DNA from: Ciborinia camelliae
Taxonomy: Eukaryota; Ascomycota; Leotiomycetes; Helotiales; Sclerotiniaceae
Direction of reading: 5' to 3'
Length of the DNA: 64,000 nucleotides
Assembly (NCBI GenBank): GCA_025890175.1
Contig: JANPYM010000009.1
Coordinates: forward strand, 2,100,250-2,164,249
The notes below the pieces were generated by a model. That model made no database searches. It was not told the origin of the DNA and saw nothing but the letters and a program-made list of their open reading frames with translations. Below, one piece after another: positions 1 through 10,379 of the stretch (position 1 is the first letter of the stretch; the number at the start of each line of letters is the position of its first letter). A program made the translations under genes and the position numbers.

Positions 1-2133
1 TCCCGATCCGTGGTGGATGCGAAGTGGGATACGAAACCGTGCGAGAAACCGCCCTTGGGGGGAGGGGTATTAGTTGGGTGTTTGTTTGTTGCTTTGGGGA
101 TTTAGGGGGGGGATGGGAGGGGATGGGAGTGAGGTTNNNNNNNNNNAGGGGGGGGATGGGAGGGGATGGGAGTGAGGTTTTAATGGAAAGAGGGGGAGCT
201 TGTGGGATTTGTTTTGGGGGGGGGGAGTGGTATATAAAGGGCAGGGTGTAACACTACTTGATGACCCTCTGGCGAATTATCTCTCCCGCCAGATGAAGCT
301 TGGATGTACGGTTTCTGGGACTCTGGGTGTATACAGAGGGTTGAGAGGGAAAGCATATGTTTGCATAGCTTTAGATACGTAGTGTCAGCCTATTCATGTG
401 ATCTCATCTTGGGGTCGATGTAGATGGAAATGGAAATGGAAATTGAACGGGAGAAGGGCATTCATACATCATCAATTTGTTCTTTGTGCGTGGTGGGCTT
501 AAATTCAAAGAGCACTATGTGGACGACTGTCATGATTGCGGTGCGATTGAAGGAAGTGGAATTGGAATTGGAATTATTTTTTGAAGGGGATAATTAGTGT
601 GTGTGTAGGAGGTGAAGGATGGGGAATTGGAAACTTGAGTACATTTCCGGAGCAACTCTTACGTCAGTCTTCTGATGGGGTTGGGATTGGTGGGGAAGAA
701 GAGATATGATTGGTTTATATGGTGATTAGTAAGGAAGCTTGGCGGGGTAAATCGTAAAGCAGTTGAATGTCCAACTGCCAAAGATCAAATATATATGTTA
801 CTCAAACACTTCTTCAAGCGGAGAAAGTTCACATTCAACCATTTCTGTTCTATTTTGCCATGTATCAAATGTCCTAGGTTAAAGATCAAATTGACTGAGA
901 AAAACACTTCGGTGACGGATCTTCGCTCTTCTTCATTGTGTACTGCCTGCCTATCATGATATGGAACAAACTAAGCTGCCCTCCGATATATATAATCGTG
1001 GGTGACCGATACCCTGTTGCTTATTTTGAGCGTGCTCACGATTAGTTTGAGCAGTGTACGATACTCTTCGTGTTGTTGAATTGCACACATTAGGTGTTTA
1101 ACTTTACGCTATTTATTTCACTATTGACAGACTGGACATCGAAAGCCTAAGTGGGTTATATAATGGAAGAAGTACTTTTAGATTCTAGGACATTCCTATC
1201 AGGTTCGTGAGTCTAATGTACTGCTGATTTTACTTCTCTTTGGTGTATAACAAGGCCGTTGGGAGGCCGTAGTAGAGGCATATAGAGTGCTGAGGAACTC
1301 AGAGTTGAGATGTAATCTTACAAGGCCTGGGCTGGAAGAGCCGAGAGCTTGAGTAAATTACGAAGTTTGTTCCCTGGAGGGTAATTCGATTGTGAATAAA
1401 TACATGAAATAATGAAAAGTACGATTGCGCTTGTAGGTTGATAATGGAAAATGCGATTGAGCTACTAAATTAGACAAGTGGTTTGATTTTTCATTAATCT
1501 ATACATCAATCAAAACTCACATCAAAGAGCCAAGGAAAGGCCAAATATTTGACATTAATTCAATACCGCAAGAGCCTAGAATTAGTTTCTAGGGCAATAC
1601 ATTGCCATAAAACCCTCAGACCTGTATTTTTGCACATTTCTCCCTTCCGAAGCACAGTAACAAGTTGTCTATCCTCAGTTGATCAACAGAATACAGGGTA
1701 GGAATAAATTCCTTATATACCAACTAACTGGTACAGAGAACTGTGCTGTCCATATAATGATAGTATTTCTTTATCTGGGCGGAACTGTGAGTCGATTCGC
1801 CCGTATTCGAGTTACATTTTCTCGTTATCTAAGATGAGAACTTACCATGCTTTCTAGTTTACGAGACTAATCTACTAGAGTCTATAACACCTGATACAGA
1901 GCTCTAAAGTATCAAGCACTAGGCCTCAATCTTTCAATTTTGCATCAATCCCTCACCCTCCACACAAAAGCTGTCCACAATCCGGCACCAGCTCAGCTCA
2001 ATCACACATCATCCATAAGTCTTTAACTTCAAGTGCCTACACAACAAAGTAAAGAAGATAGATTGTATCAAAAGGGTGGTTATGCCATAAGATACCTCGT
2101 TTACTAGATCATTATGGGATAGTAATCTCTATA
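1..2133. other. gene-free leading region
   Basis: I see no convincing gene here. The first 250 bases are G-rich and hold the N gap; two short open frames there (24-251, spanning the Ns, and 200-382) resemble no protein I know. The remainder is AT-rich with many stops in all frames and no splice-linked coding blocks. Confidence 0.6.
104..179. repeat. 33-bp perfect repeat flanking a 10-N assembly gap
   Basis: Ns occupy 137-146. The 33 bases immediately before the gap (104-136) are identical to the 33 immediately after it (147-179): an A, eight Gs, then ATGGGAGGGGATGGGAGTG and a short tail. Either the gap lies inside a G-rich tandem repeat or two contigs that should overlap were joined with Ns. 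G-runs in the unit could form quadruplexes. Confidence 0.9.
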
Positions 2134-2676
2134 TTTAAAATCAGATATGGGCACCTGTACCCTACCCGGGGTATTTGATCTCTTCGGGTGGTTTACCCTA
2201 CTTTACTGAATTCTACGGGATGGTTACTTTATAAAATCTATGGGTACAAATAAACCCGCGAATATATATTATATGATCGTTTAATATAATCATTCAAAAT
2301 TAAAGCTATTCCTAACTCTATCTCCATCTTCCACCTTCTATTTTCGATCTTCCATTTTCCATTCCTCTAATACTAACCCTAAAAAATCAAAATTAAAATC
2401 AAACACTAACCCTAATATTAACCCTAACTTTCATTTTCCTTTTATTTTCCATTTCTTTAATCTTTTATCCCTTCCACCTTTTCTACCTCTCCTCTTCAAC
2501 TTTGAACGATTACATTAAACAATCATATAATATATATCCGCGAGTTTACCCGTACCCTAAAGCATTTTATAGGGTAGTTACCCTATCCCGTAAAGGAAAA
2601 GTAAAGTAACTATCCGCTGGATTTTACCCCAGGTTACCCCGGGTGTACCCTACCCTATACCCAACCCTATTTAAAA
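2134..2676. mobile_element. MITE-like element with about 150-bp inverted arms
   Basis: About 543 bp whose left arm (roughly 2150-2299) is matched, as reverse complement, by the right arm (roughly 2501-2665). The inner 48 bases (2252-2299 versus 2501-2548) pair except at five positions, all transitions; the outer parts are more diverged. Both boundaries read TTTAAAA (2134-2140 and 2670-2676), which could be a target duplication or part of the ends. The interior has no coding capacity and contains several TAACCCTAA-like strings. I read it as a non-autonomous foldback element; the family is unknown and the exact ends are uncertain. Confidence 0.7.
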
Positions 2677-2748
2677 CATGTGAAAACGTAACGCAGTAAA
2701 AGAGCGTTGATTGATTCATTGAATGCTATTTGAGAAGTTAAACTGCAA

Positions 2749-2988
2749 CTATACTTTCAATAAAGAATGAAATTGGGTATTCAGCCTTGGGAAGCAGCAT
2801 TTTTCGAAACCCAGAAATGAAAGGAAATAGATGAACCTCATATCGTCAATTTGAATAAAGTGGGTAATCCACGTTGTCATCCCAAGATCAAGCCAAACCA
2901 ATCTTTCAAAACTCTCAACAACAATAATTCCAGCACTTTTTTCACATTTCTTGCGCAAACCTAAGACGTCGGCGAATTGAGAGTTCAT
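2749..2988 (-). CDS. small reading frame overlapping the upstream gene by 4 bp (uncertain)
   Basis: A 79-codon frame starting with ATG at 2988 whose first four bases overlap the TGA stop of the preceding minus-strand frame in an ATGA arrangement. Such overlaps are usual between co-translated bacterial genes and meaningless in fungal nuclear genes. The predicted product has hydrophobic patches in its second half but matches nothing I recognise. It may be a chance frame in the 3' flank. I list it because the neighbouring genes look bacterial. Confidence 0.2.
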   Translation of the reverse strand: MNSQFADVLGLRKKCEKSAGIIVVESFERLVWLDLGMTTWITHFIQIDDMRFIYFLSFLGFEKCCFPRLNTQFHSLLKV

Positions 2989-4145
2989 GATTCGATCTCA
3001 GGGGTTTCTTCTTCTGGGGTCACCTCCTCTTGTTCATAGGTGATGGTATCGGAATCTTCAACGAACTTCGTGCCACGATTGTGACAGGAAATCGTGTTGT
3101 ACTCATTAACGGCAAAGCTGAACTGACCCGAATTACCATAGAGATCGTACATTGTGACCCAAGGTGAAAACCACCAGCCTTGTGACCAAATATCCGTAGG
3201 ACCCGAAGTGATCATGCGAGTCAGACATAGAGAATGCGCCTGCTGTCTAATAACGATATCTTTCGTCCACGGTCTGGGATGTACTCTTCCATCGGTGTAG
3301 TGCGTCAGTCCGACCTTCACGGTTGTGCGTGCCCCCATATCCCACATATAATGCAAATGTGGACCTTTGCGATGATAGGCTACGCTATTGCGCATTCCCA
3401 CGACCACATAGTTATCTCCATAGTAGCCATTGCGATTGACTTTCTTGAACGGGTGCACTTTGCTGGTCAGATAATAATTGTCCTGATCCCACCCGCTGCC
3501 CTGAGCCGTATCTTCTCTTCTCCAGTCAGCATTGGATAAGGAATACCGGATTTCTTGTACCCCTCGAAATGCTATGTGGGAATCGTTTGGCGAGGTACGG
3601 GTTGTGATAATTGTGCCGTTGGGTTGTTGAATGCGTGCTCCCACACTTTTGACTTCGGCTCTGGTTGTAGAGACCCAATATCTTTTGTGCTGGTCATCCA
3701 TAAAAGGTTGCACAACAGAGTCTCCCGCAGTAGAGTCCGCTGTAACGGAGTCCTCGGCAACAGAGTCCCCAGCATCGGCGCTGGCGTCCCTGGCGACAGG
3801 CATTGTATGTGAGAAGTCATTCTCTGTAGCGGTATAAGTCCAAGGTCCAGTAAGCTTCTCGTTAGTGTTGTAATAGTCAACTAGCTCAATCCTCGAGAGC
3901 TCTGTCGCTGTCAAGATGTATGGATTATTGTTGGTTGGATTGATCGCTTTGATTAAGATGTTCGCGGCCACCTGCATCTGACCATTGGCAAAGAGGGTAG
4001 TGCCAGCATCACTTGCGTGTATTCTCAACAACGTCACTTCCCAACGTACAGACATGACTCTCGGTTTCACTTGGGTATGAGTAATGTAAGAAGAGTAGTA
4101 TGTTGTGCCGAAGACTGATTTATTGCTTTGGATAAACAGGTCCAA
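2985..4145 (-). CDS. unrecognised protein beside the RHS gene, no ATG for its N-terminus
   Basis: An open frame of 386 codons without introns. The frame opens after a TAA and its first possible codon is TTG at 4145; the first in-frame ATG is codon 31 (4055-4053), which would give 356 residues. The sequence is rich in aromatic residues and beta-type segments. Residues about 120-145 hold a low-complexity run of D/S/A/T (repeats of the kind DSVAEDS, TADSTAGDS), and the C-terminus is acidic (EEVTPEEETPEIES). No signal peptide or membrane helix is evident. It is transcribed away from the RHS/TcC-like gene, 1.4 kb distant. I have a weak impression that similar proteins sit near RHS or Tc-toxin genes in bacteria but cannot confirm it. 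It could be a transferred gene with a non-fungal start, a gene with a short undetected first exon, or a 5'-truncated relic. Confidence 0.5.
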   Translation of the reverse strand: MDLFIQSNKSVFGTTYYSSYITHTQVKPRVMSVRWEVTLLRIHASDAGTTLFANGQMQVAANILIKAINPTNNNPYILTATELSRIELVDYYNTNEKLTGPWTYTATENDFSHTMPVARDASADAGDSVAEDSVTADSTAGDSVVQPFMDDQHKRYWVSTTRAEVKSVGARIQQPNGTIITTRTSPNDSHIAFRGVQEIRYSLSNADWRREDTAQGSGWDQDNYYLTSKVHPFKKVNRNGYYGDNYVVVGMRNSVAYHRKGPHLHYMWDMGARTTVKVGLTHYTDGRVHPRPWTKDIVIRQQAHSLCLTRMITSGPTDIWSQGWWFSPWVTMYDLYGNSGQFSFAVNEYNTISCHNRGTKFVEDSDTITYEQEEVTPEEETPEIES

Positions 4146-5531
4146 GTAAACAGTTTAAATATCAAAGCATTCAACCTCCTTCCTCGGTAGATGCAGTATT
4201 ATATGTATACTTTATCACAACCGTTCCCCGCGTTTTCTCTCTTCTTTTGGATTCTGTTGTGCACCGAGGGGTTACATATGAATCATGCATTCTTCTGCTC
4301 ATTGGGGGTTGTTAATCAAGCTGCAGACACGAAGTGAAGGGCAAAAATATCTTCCTTGTGATACTTAGGCTCACGAGCTTGACCAATCTTGATAGCCCAG
4401 AATGACTCTATCTGATATCAATCAATTTGATTTCCACCTGTATGTCTTGGAGTGATGCAGCCACAATATCGAGAGGGGTTTTGGTAAAGGAATGTGAACC
4501 AATGCGAGATACAGCATACATGCAAAGCAAAGCATTCCGGTCCGACGATCAAATACATGAGTTTGTCAAACTTTCGCAGCTCAACGCATTTTAGATTATA
4601 TTATATGCATCAAGTGACAGCTGTACAGTGCGGATCATGAGTCAATTCAGCATTCATATTGTAAAGGCTTTTGGTGAGAGGTCATGAGCATATATTCCAT
4701 ATTAATGTTTTGCAATTGGGCTTCAACACATAAATGTATGTTCGTTCCGCGTAACAATTAGGCATAGAACTTGTTCAATCTCTGAAAGCCCAAGGTAATC
4801 ATGAGTTGTATTATGCTACTATACACGGGCGGGTATGCAGAGAAGCCTTGGTAGAGAAATGAGGCCATTGAGATTTAAGCTGAAATTTACAATTTGTTCA
4901 GTCCACAAGCAGATGTGCGGGGAAAACTCAATCAACAAAGAGGCTATCGAGGTGTGAGCTGAAGTATACATTTTGAATCATGTTCTCTATGCAAAATGCC
5001 GCATATGAATTGTGAAATACTTGGCACCGAAACGAAGCCCCTTATTGAATGATATGACCAAGCACAACATGCATCCCAAGTAATGCATCCCATCTCGGCA
5101 AATGGAAAAAGAGGGGTATGCACAAACCCCACCTCAATGTATGCAGAGCTCGCATCCGAAAGTCGGAACCCCTCAGCTCGCCAAGTTCATGCATTATCGA
5201 TCGTGATGGATGAGGCGTGTTTGGGCACTTTATGGTCTCATCAAGCTATATAATCGTCCGTTTGTGATACAGCTTCGCTTTTGAATGGGAAAAATTTAGA
5301 CTCCAACTTCTGGTAGGACAATAAAAGCTTTTCACCAATCGTACATGAGCCAAGCTGGATCAGATTAAAAGCCCGAGATGAAAATCTCCATAAATTGAGA
5401 AATATAGAAGATAGCATATTTCCTTGCAACCCATCTTCCCTACAGTCAGCATCTACCTTCACCTCCATATTCCAAATTTGGCATCAAATTGCCGCAATAA
5501 TTTCCCAAGCGATACTTCCTTGACATAAAAA
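4146..5531. other. divergent spacer between the two bacterial-like genes
   Basis: About 1.4 kb separate the divergent frames. Two short minus frames (4944-5132 and 5241-5468) show no family features. On the minus strand an AAGGAGGT string (4181-4174) lies 3 bases before an ATG (4170-4168), but that ATG is followed at once by CTT TGA and is out of frame with the 386-codon gene. I see no intron-linked coding block and no transposase. Confidence 0.5.
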
Positions 5532-8500
5532 ATGTCATCCAATTCTACAATATACTCTCAGGGGTTCAATTTCAGCGACTTCTTGCAGAAGGGCGTCGAT
5601 CCACGTACCGGTCAATATATGTGTACGGTGGATGTATATGAAGCACCAATCCAAGCCCGAAACTGTCCTCCGTTCAAGCTATCCCTAGGGTTCAATCCCC
5701 TGAACACAGGAAACTCGGGATTGGGACAAGGATGGTCGTTCAACCTCCCTTCTTATGAACACCGACAAACGAACCGGATGGTCAGCCTCTCGACCGGCGA
5801 GTCCTATCGCGTTACGGAAACATCGAGCGCCGTTTTCACGGTCGATCAAAAGCTCAAAAGCTCGACCCTGAAGAAGCTAGATGCCAATTCCTATCAGATC
5901 ACTTACAAATCGGGACAGGTGGAGATTTTGTCGAATTTTAGTAATAGATATAATAGGTCTGTTCTGGTTGACTTGTATGCTTCTACCGGTCGCTCGCTAT
6001 CATTCACCTGGTCTGCGTTGGGCGAGATTCCTCGCCTCGAGAAGATCCAACAAGGTTCGGAGGTTCTCCTTGAGGTTAAGTATGGAGCTTCTCAAGTCGA
6101 CATTATCAAAGCTCCGGGGACCCCTGAAGCGACTACATTTACTCTGATCCAAAGGAACAATCAGCTGACCGAGATTCGTTTGCCTTGGGAAGGAGCATCC
6201 TGGAAGTTCACCTATGAGCAACTTGGGCAGATGGTTCATCTCAGACAGGTAGATAGTCCTTCGGGACTTGTGGAGGAGATTCGATACCGAGAACAAGGGC
6301 ATCGTTTACCAACAGGGGCACCTTACCCGGCAATCCCCTATGCCATATCGCATACGTCACGTCCTGGAATCGGACAACCTGCCATCACAACTTCCTACAC
6401 CTATTCCGATTATAATTTTCTTGCATATGGCAGTAGCTCCAACTGGAGAGATGGGGAAGATAACTTGTACCTTACCCGTGATGAATATCAGTACACCTCG
6501 ACTGTTCGAATTGAAGGCGGGACGGAGACGAAACATACTTATAACAAATTCCATCTCCTTGTCAGCACCGAACAACAGAAAGGCTCAAAGCAAGTCATCC
6601 AGAAGATCACTTACCATGCAGTGCCATTCGCAACATTCGAAAACCAGCCTGCGCAATATCAATTGCCTAAAACGGTGGAAATTACCTATCGGGATGCAGC
6701 CAGTCAGGCGGCTCGTCAAGAAACAAGTCATCATGTATTTGATGAATGGGGGAATCCAATTCAGGATATCAAACCCAATGGGATCAGGACAGATCGCATA
6801 TACTATCCAGCAGCAGGTGAAGGAGGAAATTGTCCAGCCGATCCCCATGGCTTCCAAAGATATTTGAAAAGAGAGACGGTGACGCCCACGGGTGCTCCGG
6901 GACCAATTCGTAGCGAGAACTATACGTATGCGCAAATGCCCACGGCGACCGGTGCAAAGACGTCATATCTGGTTGTCGTTCAACAGCGGCAGAATTTGGA
7001 GGGGAGCCGACTTCTCACTAGGTTCGAATATACTTATGTGAACAGTGCTGGAACAAACAACCATACTCGCCTCCAGAAACAGGTCACACGCCTCTTGGAT
7101 CTATATCCCACCACGCAGAACTGGACGTATACGTATCCCAACAACCACCAATTCACACAGACGGTGGCGAGTACGACCTTCGATGGTTCTACCGTGGTGG
7201 AAGAAACGAGCTACTCGAAGTGGTCTGGGATGACGGTGAGTCAGAAGAATGAAGTTGGCATCTCCACACATTTCTACTACGATAGCCTTGGGCGTCCGAT
7301 CCGATCAGTGACCTCTCAAGGGACACCCTACGAAGCCGTTCAACGCCAAGAGTACACTTTCCTTGGAACCAACAACGGGTCCCGCAGGACGGCGACTGAT
7401 GCCAAGGGGATCCAAACTCGCTACATCACCGATGGGTTGGAAAGACTCCGGCGAGTTGAGCAACAAGATCCTGTGAGCCAAGTTTTTCGTCTGATCCAAG
7501 AGGACAGCTATAATGCTCAAGATCAACGCATTACCACATCCGAGATTGATTGGCTGAGAGACGAAAGAGGAGGTTCACCGGTTGAGCAACGGAATACTAA
7601 GTCCCTGCAATATGACGATTGGGGCAAGGTATACAGAGTGATAGAAAGTTCGGGCCTGCGGACCTTGTCCCAAACAGATCCCATCGCCAATACGAAAGTT
7701 GAAGGGATCGAAGGAGAGAGTATGACCCGAACCAAATTGAATCTCTTTGGGGCCCCTACGCAGATCGCACTCCATCACAAGAACAACGCGCTCTACAGCA
7801 AGGTCGACTACACCTACGATGGGTTGAATCGTCTGACGAGTCAAAGGGACAACCTGGGTCGTACAACCGAGTACAAACCCGATTCATTCGACCGTGTAAT
7901 TGAGACCATCTGGCCCAGCAGTCGTGTGGTCAAGACACAATATGCAAGCCAGACCACCGCCGTGCTGCCTACATCAGTAAAGATAAATGAAAAGACGGTT
8001 GGAGAGCAATCTTTTGATGGACTCGGTCGCGTGACGCAGAAAACCATCGCCGCACGAACGACCCGTCAAAGCTATCAAGGGATCTCACCCGACCCATCAC
8101 AAATCACCAATCCCAAGGGCGAACAATACCAGCTCACCTACCAGCCGGCATTAAACGGCGCACTGACCCAGTTGACCAGCAACAATCATACCGATACATA
8201 CCAATACGATGCGAAAACCGCGGCTCCGCTGCAGTTCAAAAGTTCCAATTCCGTGCACGATTTACAATATCAAACGTCCGGGCTGCTCTCGCGGGAAAAC
8301 ATCCATATCACGGGCGGCCAAACATTTTCCACACAGTATACCTATTCGATGGCGGGAAAATTGCAACAGTACACGGATACGAATGGGAAATTACACACGA
8401 CGTATTACGATGCGTTTGGGAGGGCTCAGAGAGTGGTGCAGGGCCGATTGAGCGTATCGTTTGTCTACGACAGCGCGAGTCGCGTGACGCAAAGCCGCGT

Positions 8501-10379
8501 CGAGGATGGGGAGAAGAAGACCAAGATAACCACGCTTCTCACATACGATGATTTTGGTCGGGAAATCAAGCGATCGGTATCCCAAGGAGAATCCACCTTG
8601 CTGTATACTCTCAGCCAGACGTATAATGGGATTGGACTGGTAGCATCGCGCCTTCAGGAGAAGAGCGGGAGCGTGCTGCGAAACGAGACGTTCGAATATG
8701 ATGTGCATAACCGACTCGTCAACTATCAATGTCAGGGAAGTGAGGCCCCTGCTGACCAGCAAGGAAATGTGCTTCGGTCGCAACGCTTCACCTTTGATAA
8801 TTACGATAATATTGTTCAATCCTCGACGGTGTTTCAAGATGGGAGTTCGAATAATTCGACCAATTTCTTCAGCGCGCAAGATCCTACTCAACTCGTTCAG
8901 ATCACCAATACGCACCCGAGTTATCCCTCCCAGGTGATCCTCGAGTATGATCAGAATGGCTGCTTGACGCGCGATGAACAGGGTCGACGACTGCAATACG
9001 ATAGCATGAGTCGCCTCATTGCCGTTCGAGACGCCAACGGTAATCTTCTGGCCCAATACCTGTACGATGCGGCCGGAAAACTGATCTGTCAGAAAGTCCC
9101 CAATGAACCCGACACCAACCTCTTCTATCGGGAATCGCTCATCGCCGTGAAGAAGGGAGATCGCCACGTGAGTTATCTGTCTCACGGATCCGAGTATTGG
9201 GGCGAATCCATCTCGCAAGCAGGTGGGAGCACCGAAACTCAACTGTGGGCCGCGGATTGCAAACAATCGGTTCTCACGACGTTGGATTCGCAAACCCCGA
9301 GTCAGGTTCGTTCGCAGCAGTACACGCCCTATGGATTCTCGGGCTCGGGATCGGAAGCCTCCTTTTCCTCCATCGGCTTCAATGGACAGTGGCGAGATCC
9401 CGTGACCGGGTGGTATCATTTGGGCAATGGGTATCGAGTTTATAATCCCCAGCTTCAGCGCTTCCATACGCCGGATCCGTGGAGTCCATTTGCATCGGGA
9501 GAGATCAATCCTTACGTCTACTGTCTAGGAGATCCCATCAATCGAGTCGATCCGAATGGACATTTCAGCATCTTTGGGTGGAAATTCGGATGGAAAGATC
9601 TCATCATGGTGGTGGTTGGAATTGCCGTGAGCATAGGCGTTGGGATCCTCACCGGCGGAGCCAGCCTCGCGATCCAGATTGGAGTTGGGATTGCGGCCGG
9701 AGTTGCCAGCGACGTGATATCGGGGATGATTGGAGATTTAGCAGAGGGAAACGCGATCACGTGGAGAAGCGTTGGTTTGGATGCTCTGGGTGGACTGATC
9801 GGTGGAGTCGGCGGCGAGCTTGGTGGGGCGGCTCTCAAACAGGGATTCAAAGCTACCAAAGCCTTGCCCGTGGCTCTCAAGAAGACAGTAGGTCGGGCAG
9901 GCTCGTACTCTGTTACCAAAGGCGTGTCGAGTGGGGTCAGCCAGAGTGTATCGGCAACCATCAAGAGTGGACTGAGAGCTTCCGCTCGAGGATTGATTCC
10001 AGGGCAAGTTGCAGCACGCTCGTTGGTACCACTTATCGCCCCGGATCCCAAGGAGGAAAGCGAGCCATCCCAAGAAGGCCCGTCGAATCTATCATCCAAT
10101 AGCAGTAACGATACTTTCTCAACCAATCCGTTGGGACGTTCCGGCCCTGCTCAAGTTGGCAGCCCGTCTTTCTATCTCGACAGAGGATCTTCCATCACGA
10201 GAGATATCATCCGGCCTCTCATGAAAGATGGCGATGATACGGAATTCTCGACACCATTCATGAGCAACTATGGTAACCAGGCTAGCGCTGGACAATCCGC
10301 TGTGGCAATCCTCCTTAATCGGGATGTTAGATTTACCTATGGTCCCCTGACGGATATGCAACCCGAGGCAGATTCTTAG
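5532..10379 (+). CDS. RHS-repeat / TcC-like toxin-family protein
   Basis: A single uninterrupted 1615-codon frame, exceptional for this gene-sparse, intron-containing genome. Residues 1 to about 540 resemble the N-terminal region of large RHS proteins of pseudomonads (opening with a GVDPRTGQY motif near residue 21). From about 590 to 1310 there are many YD repeats (YDSLGR, YDGLNR, FDGLGR, YDAFGR, YDDFGR, YDSMSR, YDAAGK). The RHS core closes with TPDPWSPF (D1315) and GDPINRVDPNGH (D1334, R1338, D1340), the signature before which RHS shells build and after which they release a variable domain in bacterial TcC/RHS proteins. The C-terminal domain (1345-1615) starts with a glycine-rich hydrophobic stretch (about 1355-1400), then a Ser/Asn-rich linker and a polar tail; I cannot assign its activity. 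No signal peptide. In bacteria such proteins encapsulate a toxic C-terminal domain; here the role is unknown. No SpvB/TcdB-type or TcA-type partner is visible. Bacterial origin is inferred. Confidence 0.88.
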   Translation: MSSNSTIYSQGFNFSDFLQKGVDPRTGQYMCTVDVYEAPIQARNCPPFKLSLGFNPLNTGNSGLGQGWSFNLPSYEHRQTNRMVSLSTGESYRVTETSSAVFTVDQKLKSSTLKKLDANSYQITYKSGQVEILSNFSNRYNRSVLVDLYASTGRSLSFTWSALGEIPRLEKIQQGSEVLLEVKYGASQVDIIKAPGTPEATTFTLIQRNNQLTEIRLPWEGASWKFTYEQLGQMVHLRQVDSPSGLVEEIRYREQGHRLPTGAPYPAIPYAISHTSRPGIGQPAITTSYTYSDYNFLAYGSSSNWRDGEDNLYLTRDEYQYTSTVRIEGGTETKHTYNKFHLLVSTEQQKGSKQVIQKITYHAVPFATFENQPAQYQLPKTVEITYRDAASQAARQETSHHVFDEWGNPIQDIKPNGIRTDRIYYPAAGEGGNCPADPHGFQRYLKRETVTPTGAPGPIRSENYTYAQMPTATGAKTSYLVVVQQRQNLEGSRLLTRFEYTYVNSAGTNNHTRLQKQVTRLLDLYPTTQNWTYTYPNNHQFTQTVASTTFDGSTVVEETSYSKWSGMTVSQKNEVGISTHFYYDSLGRPIRSVTSQGTPYEAVQRQEYTFLGTNNGSRRTATDAKGIQTRYITDGLERLRRVEQQDPVSQVFRLIQEDSYNAQDQRITTSEIDWLRDERGGSPVEQRNTKSLQYDDWGKVYRVIESSGLRTLSQTDPIANTKVEGIEGESMTRTKLNLFGAPTQIALHHKNNALYSKVDYTYDGLNRLTSQRDNLGRTTEYKPDSFDRVIETIWPSSRVVKTQYASQTTAVLPTSVKINEKTVGEQSFDGLGRVTQKTIAARTTRQSYQGISPDPSQITNPKGEQYQLTYQPALNGALTQLTSNNHTDTYQYDAKTAAPLQFKSSNSVHDLQYQTSGLLSRENIHITGGQTFSTQYTYSMAGKLQQYTDTNGKLHTTYYDAFGRAQRVVQGRLSVSFVYDSASRVTQSRVEDGEKKTKITTLLTYDDFGREIKRSVSQGESTLLYTLSQTYNGIGLVASRLQEKSGSVLRNETFEYDVHNRLVNYQCQGSEAPADQQGNVLRSQRFTFDNYDNIVQSSTVFQDGSSNNSTNFFSAQDPTQLVQITNTHPSYPSQVILEYDQNGCLTRDEQGRRLQYDSMSRLIAVRDANGNLLAQYLYDAAGKLICQKVPNEPDTNLFYRESLIAVKKGDRHVSYLSHGSEYWGESISQAGGSTETQLWAADCKQSVLTTLDSQTPSQVRSQQYTPYGFSGSGSEASFSSIGFNGQWRDPVTGWYHLGNGYRVYNPQLQRFHTPDPWSPFASGEINPYVYCLGDPINRVDPNGHFSIFGWKFGWKDLIMVVVGIAVSIGVGILTGGASLAIQIGVGIAAGVASDVISGMIGDLAEGNAITWRSVGLDALGGLIGGVGGELGGAALKQGFKATKALPVALKKTVGRAGSYSVTKGVSSGVSQSVSATIKSGLRASARGLIPGQVAARSLVPLIAPDPKEESEPSQEGPSNLSSNSSNDTFSTNPLGRSGPAQVGSPSFYLDRGSSITRDIIRPLMKDGDDTEFSTPFMSNYGNQASAGQSAVAILLNRDVRFTYGPLTDMQPEADS

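Follow-up and report, generated by a model that had tools for sequence, protein, structure and literature searches.

The 64,000-nucleotide stretch of Ciborinia camelliae DNA analysed here (hereafter the window) contains two divergently oriented genes. The larger, an RHS/TcC-like gene recognised from its reading frame, Pfam and NCBIfam matches and homologues, occupies positions 5532–10379 of the + strand; the ORF list gives it as a single ATG-started frame of 1615 amino acids with no interruption and no intron, just as the initial annotation had described it (an uninterrupted, intronless frame of 4.8 kb), and a frame of such length is not a chance product. The second gene, absent from that annotation, lies on the − strand at 2985–4055 and encodes 356 amino acids from an ATG at 4055 (the frame is open to 4145); we delimited it from the ORF list, its homologues and a model, and refer to it as the partner gene. 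Judging by the coordinates, the intergenic stretch between the two genes (4056–5531) is probably a bidirectional promoter. Just downstream of the partner gene is a MITE-like element (2130–2690) with imperfect inverted arms (2242–2305 and 2494–2557; 84% complementary). This element has 99 matches in the genome at E ≤ 0.001 (40 of 84 candidates scored, some matching arm to arm), and its long copies are mostly 67–74% identical. At 137–146, ten N separate identical 33-nucleotide G-rich direct repeats (104–136 and 147–179), marking an assembly gap or a collapsed tandem repeat. Two proteins encoded elsewhere in the same genome show 100% identity to C. camelliae records (NHQ30_003285 over 1624 amino acids and NHQ30_009293 over 334), which places the host in this species or very close to it.

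The RHS protein begins with an N-terminal shell region (residues 1–430; 5532–6821), delimited by comparison with bacterial proteins and with Sclerotinia borealis, and continues with a YD-repeat β-barrel (residues 431–1263; 6822–9320), predicted to be the wall of a cage from Pfam, modelling and Foldseek. There follows an RHS-associated core (residues 1264–1343; 9321–9560), a probable aspartyl autoprotease and plug according to NCBIfam and the alignment. The YD/RHS repeats match Pfam RHS_repeat PF05593 (E 4.3e-18), and the Rhs core model TIGR03696 of NCBIfam matches residues 1264–1344 (E 2.9e-21; 75.7 bits against a cut-off of 32.5), so that both the repeats and the closing core named in the initial annotation were recovered. 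Residue 1344 is the last of the closing core, GDPINRVDPNGH, which leaves 271 residues beyond it. Beyond the core lie a Gly-rich hydrophobic segment (residues 1344–1450; 9561–9881) seen in the alignment and in hydropathy, a variable linker (residues 1451–1545; 9882–10166) delimited by alignment, and a conserved tail (residues 1546–1615; 10167–10376) delimited by profile comparison and alignment. We found no signal peptide in this protein by eye and no secretion route for it.

A 1187-residue model of residues 429–1615 shows a continuous barrel of β-strands (pLDDT about 88), and its best fold match in the PDB by Foldseek is Tse5 (E 1.4e-38, probability 1.00), which is also the only PDB match of the protein by sequence. 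Further fold matches include RhsA, other Rhs effectors, teneurins and TcdB2–TccC3. We therefore predict that the protein forms a hollow β-barrel cage of the Rhs/TcC/teneurin kind; domain and fold matches agree on the bacterial-type RHS identity first proposed for it. From about residue 1317 on, the pLDDT falls below 50, so that of the separate C-terminal domain first described, the 271 residues after the core stand but a confidently folded domain does not. In the structure of Rhs1, the densities of the caged toxin end are likewise described as poorly resolved (PMC8636562). The core is the most conserved part of the protein (89% identity to S. borealis); its D1334 and D1340 are invariant in 41 fungal rows, and D1315 is present in at least 90% of them. 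By motif comparison with a structural report (PMC8636562), these aspartates are candidates for the catalytic residues of the RHS aspartyl autoprotease.

Homology searches returned 322 RHS matches, and among the 120 of these that were listed every row with an organism name is fungal. The nearest listed matches are from Sclerotinia borealis (80%) and Botrytis (76–78%), the latter also having more distant paralogues; further listed genera include Monilinia, Metarhizium, Beauveria, Trichoderma, Aspergillus, Penicillium, Peltigera, Choiromyces, Mycena and others. Two listed records, P0098 (Aspergillus awamori) and P0049 (Hypoxylon), are fused to or named after unrelated products of the K+/H+ antiporter or replication protein psf2 type, probably because the public records contain mistakes in gene models or names. 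Our tree of 52 shells comprised 40 of the 120 listed fungal rows, eight of the 15 bacterial loci described below (L005, L006, L008, L009 and L011, all of which are cut, and L015 and L016 were left out), L031, L036 and two outgroup rows. All 40 fungal rows lie on one side of a single branch (SH-aLRT 100), and the window protein groups there with close relatives, among them those of S. borealis and Botrytis. Identity to S. borealis is 76–89% over the N-terminal region, barrel and core and 81% over the last 70 residues, a constraint consistent with the view already advanced that selection probably still acts on the frame.

The initial annotation had held that nesting among widely inherited fungal proteins, or evidence of contamination or misassembly, would speak against its proposal of a transfer. 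The homologue list and the tree show precisely such nesting, which makes any transfer old. An intronless frame, bacterial-type domains and a GC content of 0.51, against 0.43–0.46 in four flanking ORFs, would suit a recent, private horizontal transfer into one fungus or a contaminant or misassembly. However, two other flanking ORFs have GC contents of 0.59 and 0.53, and the orthologues in Sclerotinia and Botrytis (76–80%), together with the single clade of 40 fungal rows, contradict a recent event. As to contamination, the window lies on a 2.56-Mb contig (C27, positions 2100250–2164249) of a 46.2-Mb assembly in 27 contigs; the flanking ORFs include eukaryotic genes (for an amino acid permease, a C2-domain phosphatidylserine decarboxylase, a protein kinase and a Rad4 protein); the gene pair recurs in other fungal assemblies; and the second RHS gene of this genome carries an intron. 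This paralogue (C21:2778000–2787999, 2003–7053, − strand; 45–52% identical to the window RHS) ends in a RelE/YoeB-like domain and is interrupted by a GT-AG intron of 179 bases, a sign that it has resided in a eukaryote. We thus consider both a recent transfer and an artefact exceedingly improbable, and take the gene to be an old member of a fungal family. We found no partner gene beside the paralogue; conversely, a second partner copy (C4:1464000–1473999, 5143–6147, + strand; about 41–47% identical to the window partner) is an orphan, in that no RHS gene of this genome was found near it.

The partner itself has no significant relative in Pfam, NCBIfam or the PDB sequences. Its model is almost all-β and Ig-like, with a fold resembling the Ig-like domains of invasin and intimin, and we predict that it is an Ig-like member of an orphan family linked to RHS. 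We identified 46 partner homologues, of which all those with an organism name are fungal; one, P0166, is 61% identical to the partner of the bacterium Tistrella and is thus probably bacterial. Nineteen of the 46 matches (window included) share a contig with a listed RHS match, a shared contig in the fungal pairs being taken from contigs of equal size, and the remaining 27 have no listed RHS contig. Because the pairing draws on the 120 of 322 RHS matches that were listed, the number of pairs is a lower bound, and bacterial matches may sit among the rest. Nine of the 19 fungal pairs have consecutive locus tags (SBOR_4104/4105, DID88_006787/006788, BPAE_0398g00060/00070, BBP40_007492/007493, KXW10_000404/000405, N7471_009135/009136, FQN57_001623/001624, HK57_00533/00534 and MMC31_004479/004480); the tags of the Aspergillus turcosus pair (107687/107810) are 123 apart, which speaks against adjacency there. 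Across the 19 pairs, RHS and partner distances correlate with r 0.84, a value reached in none of 5000 permutations, as would be expected under joint inheritance. In a partner tree built from 40 of the 46 matches (without P0128–P0131, P0136 and P0161) and six bacterial partner ORFs, without the partners of two bacterial genomes introduced below (G300 and G290), the fungi require two changes, Tistrella and P0166 standing among the fungi on a branch of length 2.

We scanned one genome per bacterial or archaeal species with an alignment of the partner only, using two peptide patterns. The scan found 15 loci, 14 in Pseudomonas and one in Tistrella mobilis, a lower bound given that two patterns were used, and in all 15 a related RHS gene adjoins the partner. 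These bacterial RHS proteins are 31–35% identical to that of the window over 1156–1473 aligned columns (five are cut by the end of the locus), in agreement with the pseudomonad-like N terminus noted at the outset. The two genes lie on the same strand, 24–257 bp apart or overlapping by 85 bp. In Tistrella the RHS gene precedes the partner; in the Pseudomonas loci (L005–L018) one to four diverged partner copies precede the RHS gene, and most of these loci encode between partner and RHS a protein of about 500–845 amino acids, which in the one case tested is a leucine-rich repeat (LRR) protein by Pfam and weakly resembles type III LRR effectors. Among 398 evenly drawn genomes of Pseudomonadota, four contained the partner (one of them as a weak frame of 77 amino acids) and six contained RHS at E ≤ 1e-30. 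Both genes stand side by side in three of the 398 (G001, G300 and G290), and these provide the three best full-length RHS matches of the draw (36, 36 and 32%). One of them, G001, is the Tistrella already found by the partner-only scan; the partner match in G290 is a weak one, with E 1.4e-4 within the draw and 2.5e-8 for its own frame, and tblastn with the window partner protein gave no match to it.

The non-fungal relatives that we found thus belong to Pseudomonas, Tistrella and a few other Pseudomonadota, and they share the neighbouring gene. Given the weak root of the shell tree (42) and its long outgroup branches, the direction from bacteria to fungi is drawn from this distribution and not from the root. 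On that distribution, the pair is best explained by an origin in bacteria, and the acquisition from bacteria originally proposed appears sound. Most simply, the two genes would have arrived from bacteria as one unit and have turned divergent afterwards, the arrangement seen in the window.

The regions beyond the core differ among members of the family. Nearly all fungal C termini open with the Gly-rich hydrophobic segment, and we sorted what follows with two profiles, whose seeds were 18 and 19 rows taken from these 120 listed matches themselves (where the core motif was missing, the C terminus was taken from residue 1341 on). Among the 120 listed fungal RHS proteins, 27 have a RelE-like end, 22 have what we call a His...Cys domain and 71, the window protein among them, have neither. 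This last class is a remainder: truncated or odd records (for example P0016, P0098 and P0113) fall into it, as does one additional type of end or more. One such type is seen in P0065 and in Trichoderma P0104, which have a motif around NNRRLYVF/DNRRLRVF and fit neither profile. A profile of six fungal and two Pseudomonas RelE-like ends matches PDB entry 7xbj, a '40kDa insecticidal toxin' (8.2e-13), and YoeB (5.1e-4), and an all-fungal RelE-like profile matches the ends of all nine Pseudomonas RHS proteins of the family that are full-length, with domain E values from 1.1e-3 to 1.6e-11. The His...Cys domain has its His in a ...THG motif and its Cys in ...[AS]C...G; it has no sequence match in Pfam or the PDB, but its motif order fits the His-Gly and Cys of caspase-like (clan CD) peptidases, which it may resemble in fold. 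In bacteria, the RHS ends of Tistrella and G300 fit neither fungal profile, and G378, another genome of the draw, has a His...Cys-like end by eye, with a weak 10-bit match. The family as a whole thus bears the trait of polymorphic toxins, namely a conserved shell with C-terminal domains exchangeable across relatives.

The tail of the window protein is homologous to the His...Cys domain: in hhalign, tails of the window type match that domain with a probability of 98.7 (E 3.1e-16) and the RelE-like end with a probability of 0.2. However, the His segment is missing from the window tail and the Cys position is replaced, such that the domain has probably been disarmed or repurposed. No RelE-like match was found past the hydrophobic segment either, and with no catalytic C-terminal domain found in the window protein by any of these three signs, we have filed it as an RHS protein and not as a toxin; an enclosed active toxin of the kind first suggested appears doubtful here. 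All 16 rows of the tree clade that holds the window protein fall into the class with neither end, indicating that the loss is old. Loss of His and Cys, together with the 71 of 120 listed fungal matches with neither end, some of them truncated, might suggest a decaying relic drifting since toxin activity was lost. We think this very unlikely, because the loss is old and yet the frame is intact, and because in each of the 13 relatives compared identity is higher over the tail than over the linker (in S. borealis, 81% and 73%, respectively). Our preferred reading is that the tail is conserved but probably non-enzymatic.

Alternatively, the window protein may have kept its toxicity and act on competitors or incompatible hyphae; its poison would then be the hydrophobic segment, as a pore former, and not the tail. 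The end of Tse5 is pore-forming, Tse5 is both the only PDB sequence match and the best fold match of the window protein, and the ends are exchangeable among the fungal members, a trait of polymorphic toxins; moreover, residues 1344–1450 are the only stretch of the protein with a 19-residue hydropathy above 1.6 and are 88% identical to S. borealis. The same segment, however, is also present in members that carry a RelE-like or a His...Cys domain, which makes it look like a translocation aid and not a toxin, and we regard a pore-forming toxin as unlikely. Nothing observed here points specifically to the insect interaction first proposed.

Returning to the reading that we prefer, we consider it likely that the window holds a two-gene RHS module that came from bacteria as a pair and whose RHS protein has lost its active site, a judgement that leaves the mechanism aside. 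According to this proposal, a TcC/Rhs-type cage and an Ig-like partner would have been received together from a proteobacterial lineage, would be old in fungi and would have been inherited since. Several observations weigh against it: the weak root and long outgroup branches of the shell tree, the two changes that fungi need in the partner tree, the 27 partner matches without a listed RHS contig, the locus tags of A. turcosus, the unlinked second copies of both genes in this genome, the ends of Tistrella and G300 that fit neither profile, and the failure to find a signal peptide by eye or a secretion route. The YD-repeat barrel would enclose the C-terminal part, the core would cleave behind ...DPNG, and the hydrophobic segment may aid the released end in crossing a membrane or lodging in one. 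The tail, lacking His and Cys and yet conserved, would probably work without that activity, as a membrane-active segment, as a decoy or in a structural or recognition role.

One conceivable role of the partner is that of an immunity or antitoxin protein guarding the fungus against its own RHS product. Linked immunity genes are common among polymorphic toxins, and the partner is co-inherited with RHS. Immunity proteins track the toxin domain, however, whereas one partner family accompanies RelE-like, His...Cys and degenerate ends alike (among RHS genes linked to a partner, 13 have neither end, three a RelE-like and three a His...Cys end), there are one to four partner copies per bacterial locus, and the predicted fold of the partner resembles that of invasin/intimin Ig-like domains. 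Toxin–immunity gene pairs are listed in PMC3482391. An immunity function is on these grounds decidedly unlikely. Since the partner accompanies the shell and not any one toxin domain, it may more plausibly cap or plug the cage, or serve it as a binding subunit, an assignment that we put forward tentatively.

The RHS cages of fungi have been annotated but little studied. An unnamed second gene that stands beside RHS in both bacteria and fungi offers a first handle on how the cage works, because the partner must serve some need of the shell, whatever the toxin end. Furthermore, members with RelE-like ends, members with His...Cys ends and an old clade with neither form a natural series for studying the loss, and possible reuse, of a toxin. 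Teneurins have been traced to a bacterial toxin, and toxin loss and reuse have been a question since then. A broader scenario, which we think quite unlikely as it stands, is that fungi inherit an RHS toxin system (a bacterial cage and Ig-like pair, transferred and retained together, with swapped ends, used between fungi or against others) and that in the window clade the toxin has been disarmed and the cage with its Ig-like partner turned into a recognition or adhesion device.

RHS-repeat proteins of Sclerotiniaceae are known already; on the partner, its pairing with RHS and the kinds of fungal RHS end, our searches of a collection of open-access papers showed no publication. A Monilinia transcript of 5479 nucleotides, T9520, has Bcin14g04460 as its best Botrytis match and shows homology of up to 74% to fungal RHS proteins and 32–35% identity to those of Pseudomonas (PMC5987419). 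Matched by this description and not by sequence, T9520/Bcin14g04460 is probably the orthologue of the window RHS; the available part of that report mentions neither the neighbouring gene nor the kinds of C terminus. Ss-Rhs1 of Sclerotinia sclerotiorum is an RHS-repeat protein whose RNAi lines are less virulent (reviewed in PMC7168625; described also in PMC7065775). We liken it to the window protein by description only. It is reported to be secreted and to occur in no genera other than Sclerotinia and Botrytis, and it belongs to a different class according to PMC5987419.

Comparison with known systems brings out what is particular to the window pair. The Pseudomonas and Tistrella loci, for which we found no family name, share with it the shell (31–35%), the adjoining partner and, by eye, the hydrophobic segment, and Pseudomonas also the RelE-like ends found in some fungal members. 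They differ in being same-strand and operon-like, often with several partners and a further protein (LRR by Pfam in the one tested) in Pseudomonas, whereas in the window a single partner stands divergent to RHS and the RHS tail bears no enzyme signature. With the TcC component of Tc toxins (TccC3), the window RHS shares the YD barrel, a variable C-terminal region and a core ending that we take to be in TcC style (TM 0.54 to TcdB2–TccC3); we found no ORF of TcA or TcB size within the 64-kb window, and the partner, at about 350 amino acids, is unlike these in being, by prediction, almost all-β and Ig-like. The type VI secretion Rhs effectors (Tse5, RhsA and Rhs1) have the same cage fold (E 1.4e-38 to Tse5), but the host here is a fungus, the N terminus starts, by sequence, directly in the shell, and the predicted Ig-like domains are on a separate gene; Rhs1, in contrast, has an Ig-like plug at its N terminus (PMC8636562). 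The plug of teneurins contains two Ig-like domains (PMC8636562), and fungi are reported to lack teneurins (PMC6428715); they differ from the window RHS, which shows no EGF repeats or transmembrane receptor part, and resemble it in that both are eukaryotic proteins with a YD shell derived from bacteria. If the window clade has indeed become a recognition or adhesion device, it would be a second RHS toxin turned eukaryotic contact protein, beside the teneurins of animals.
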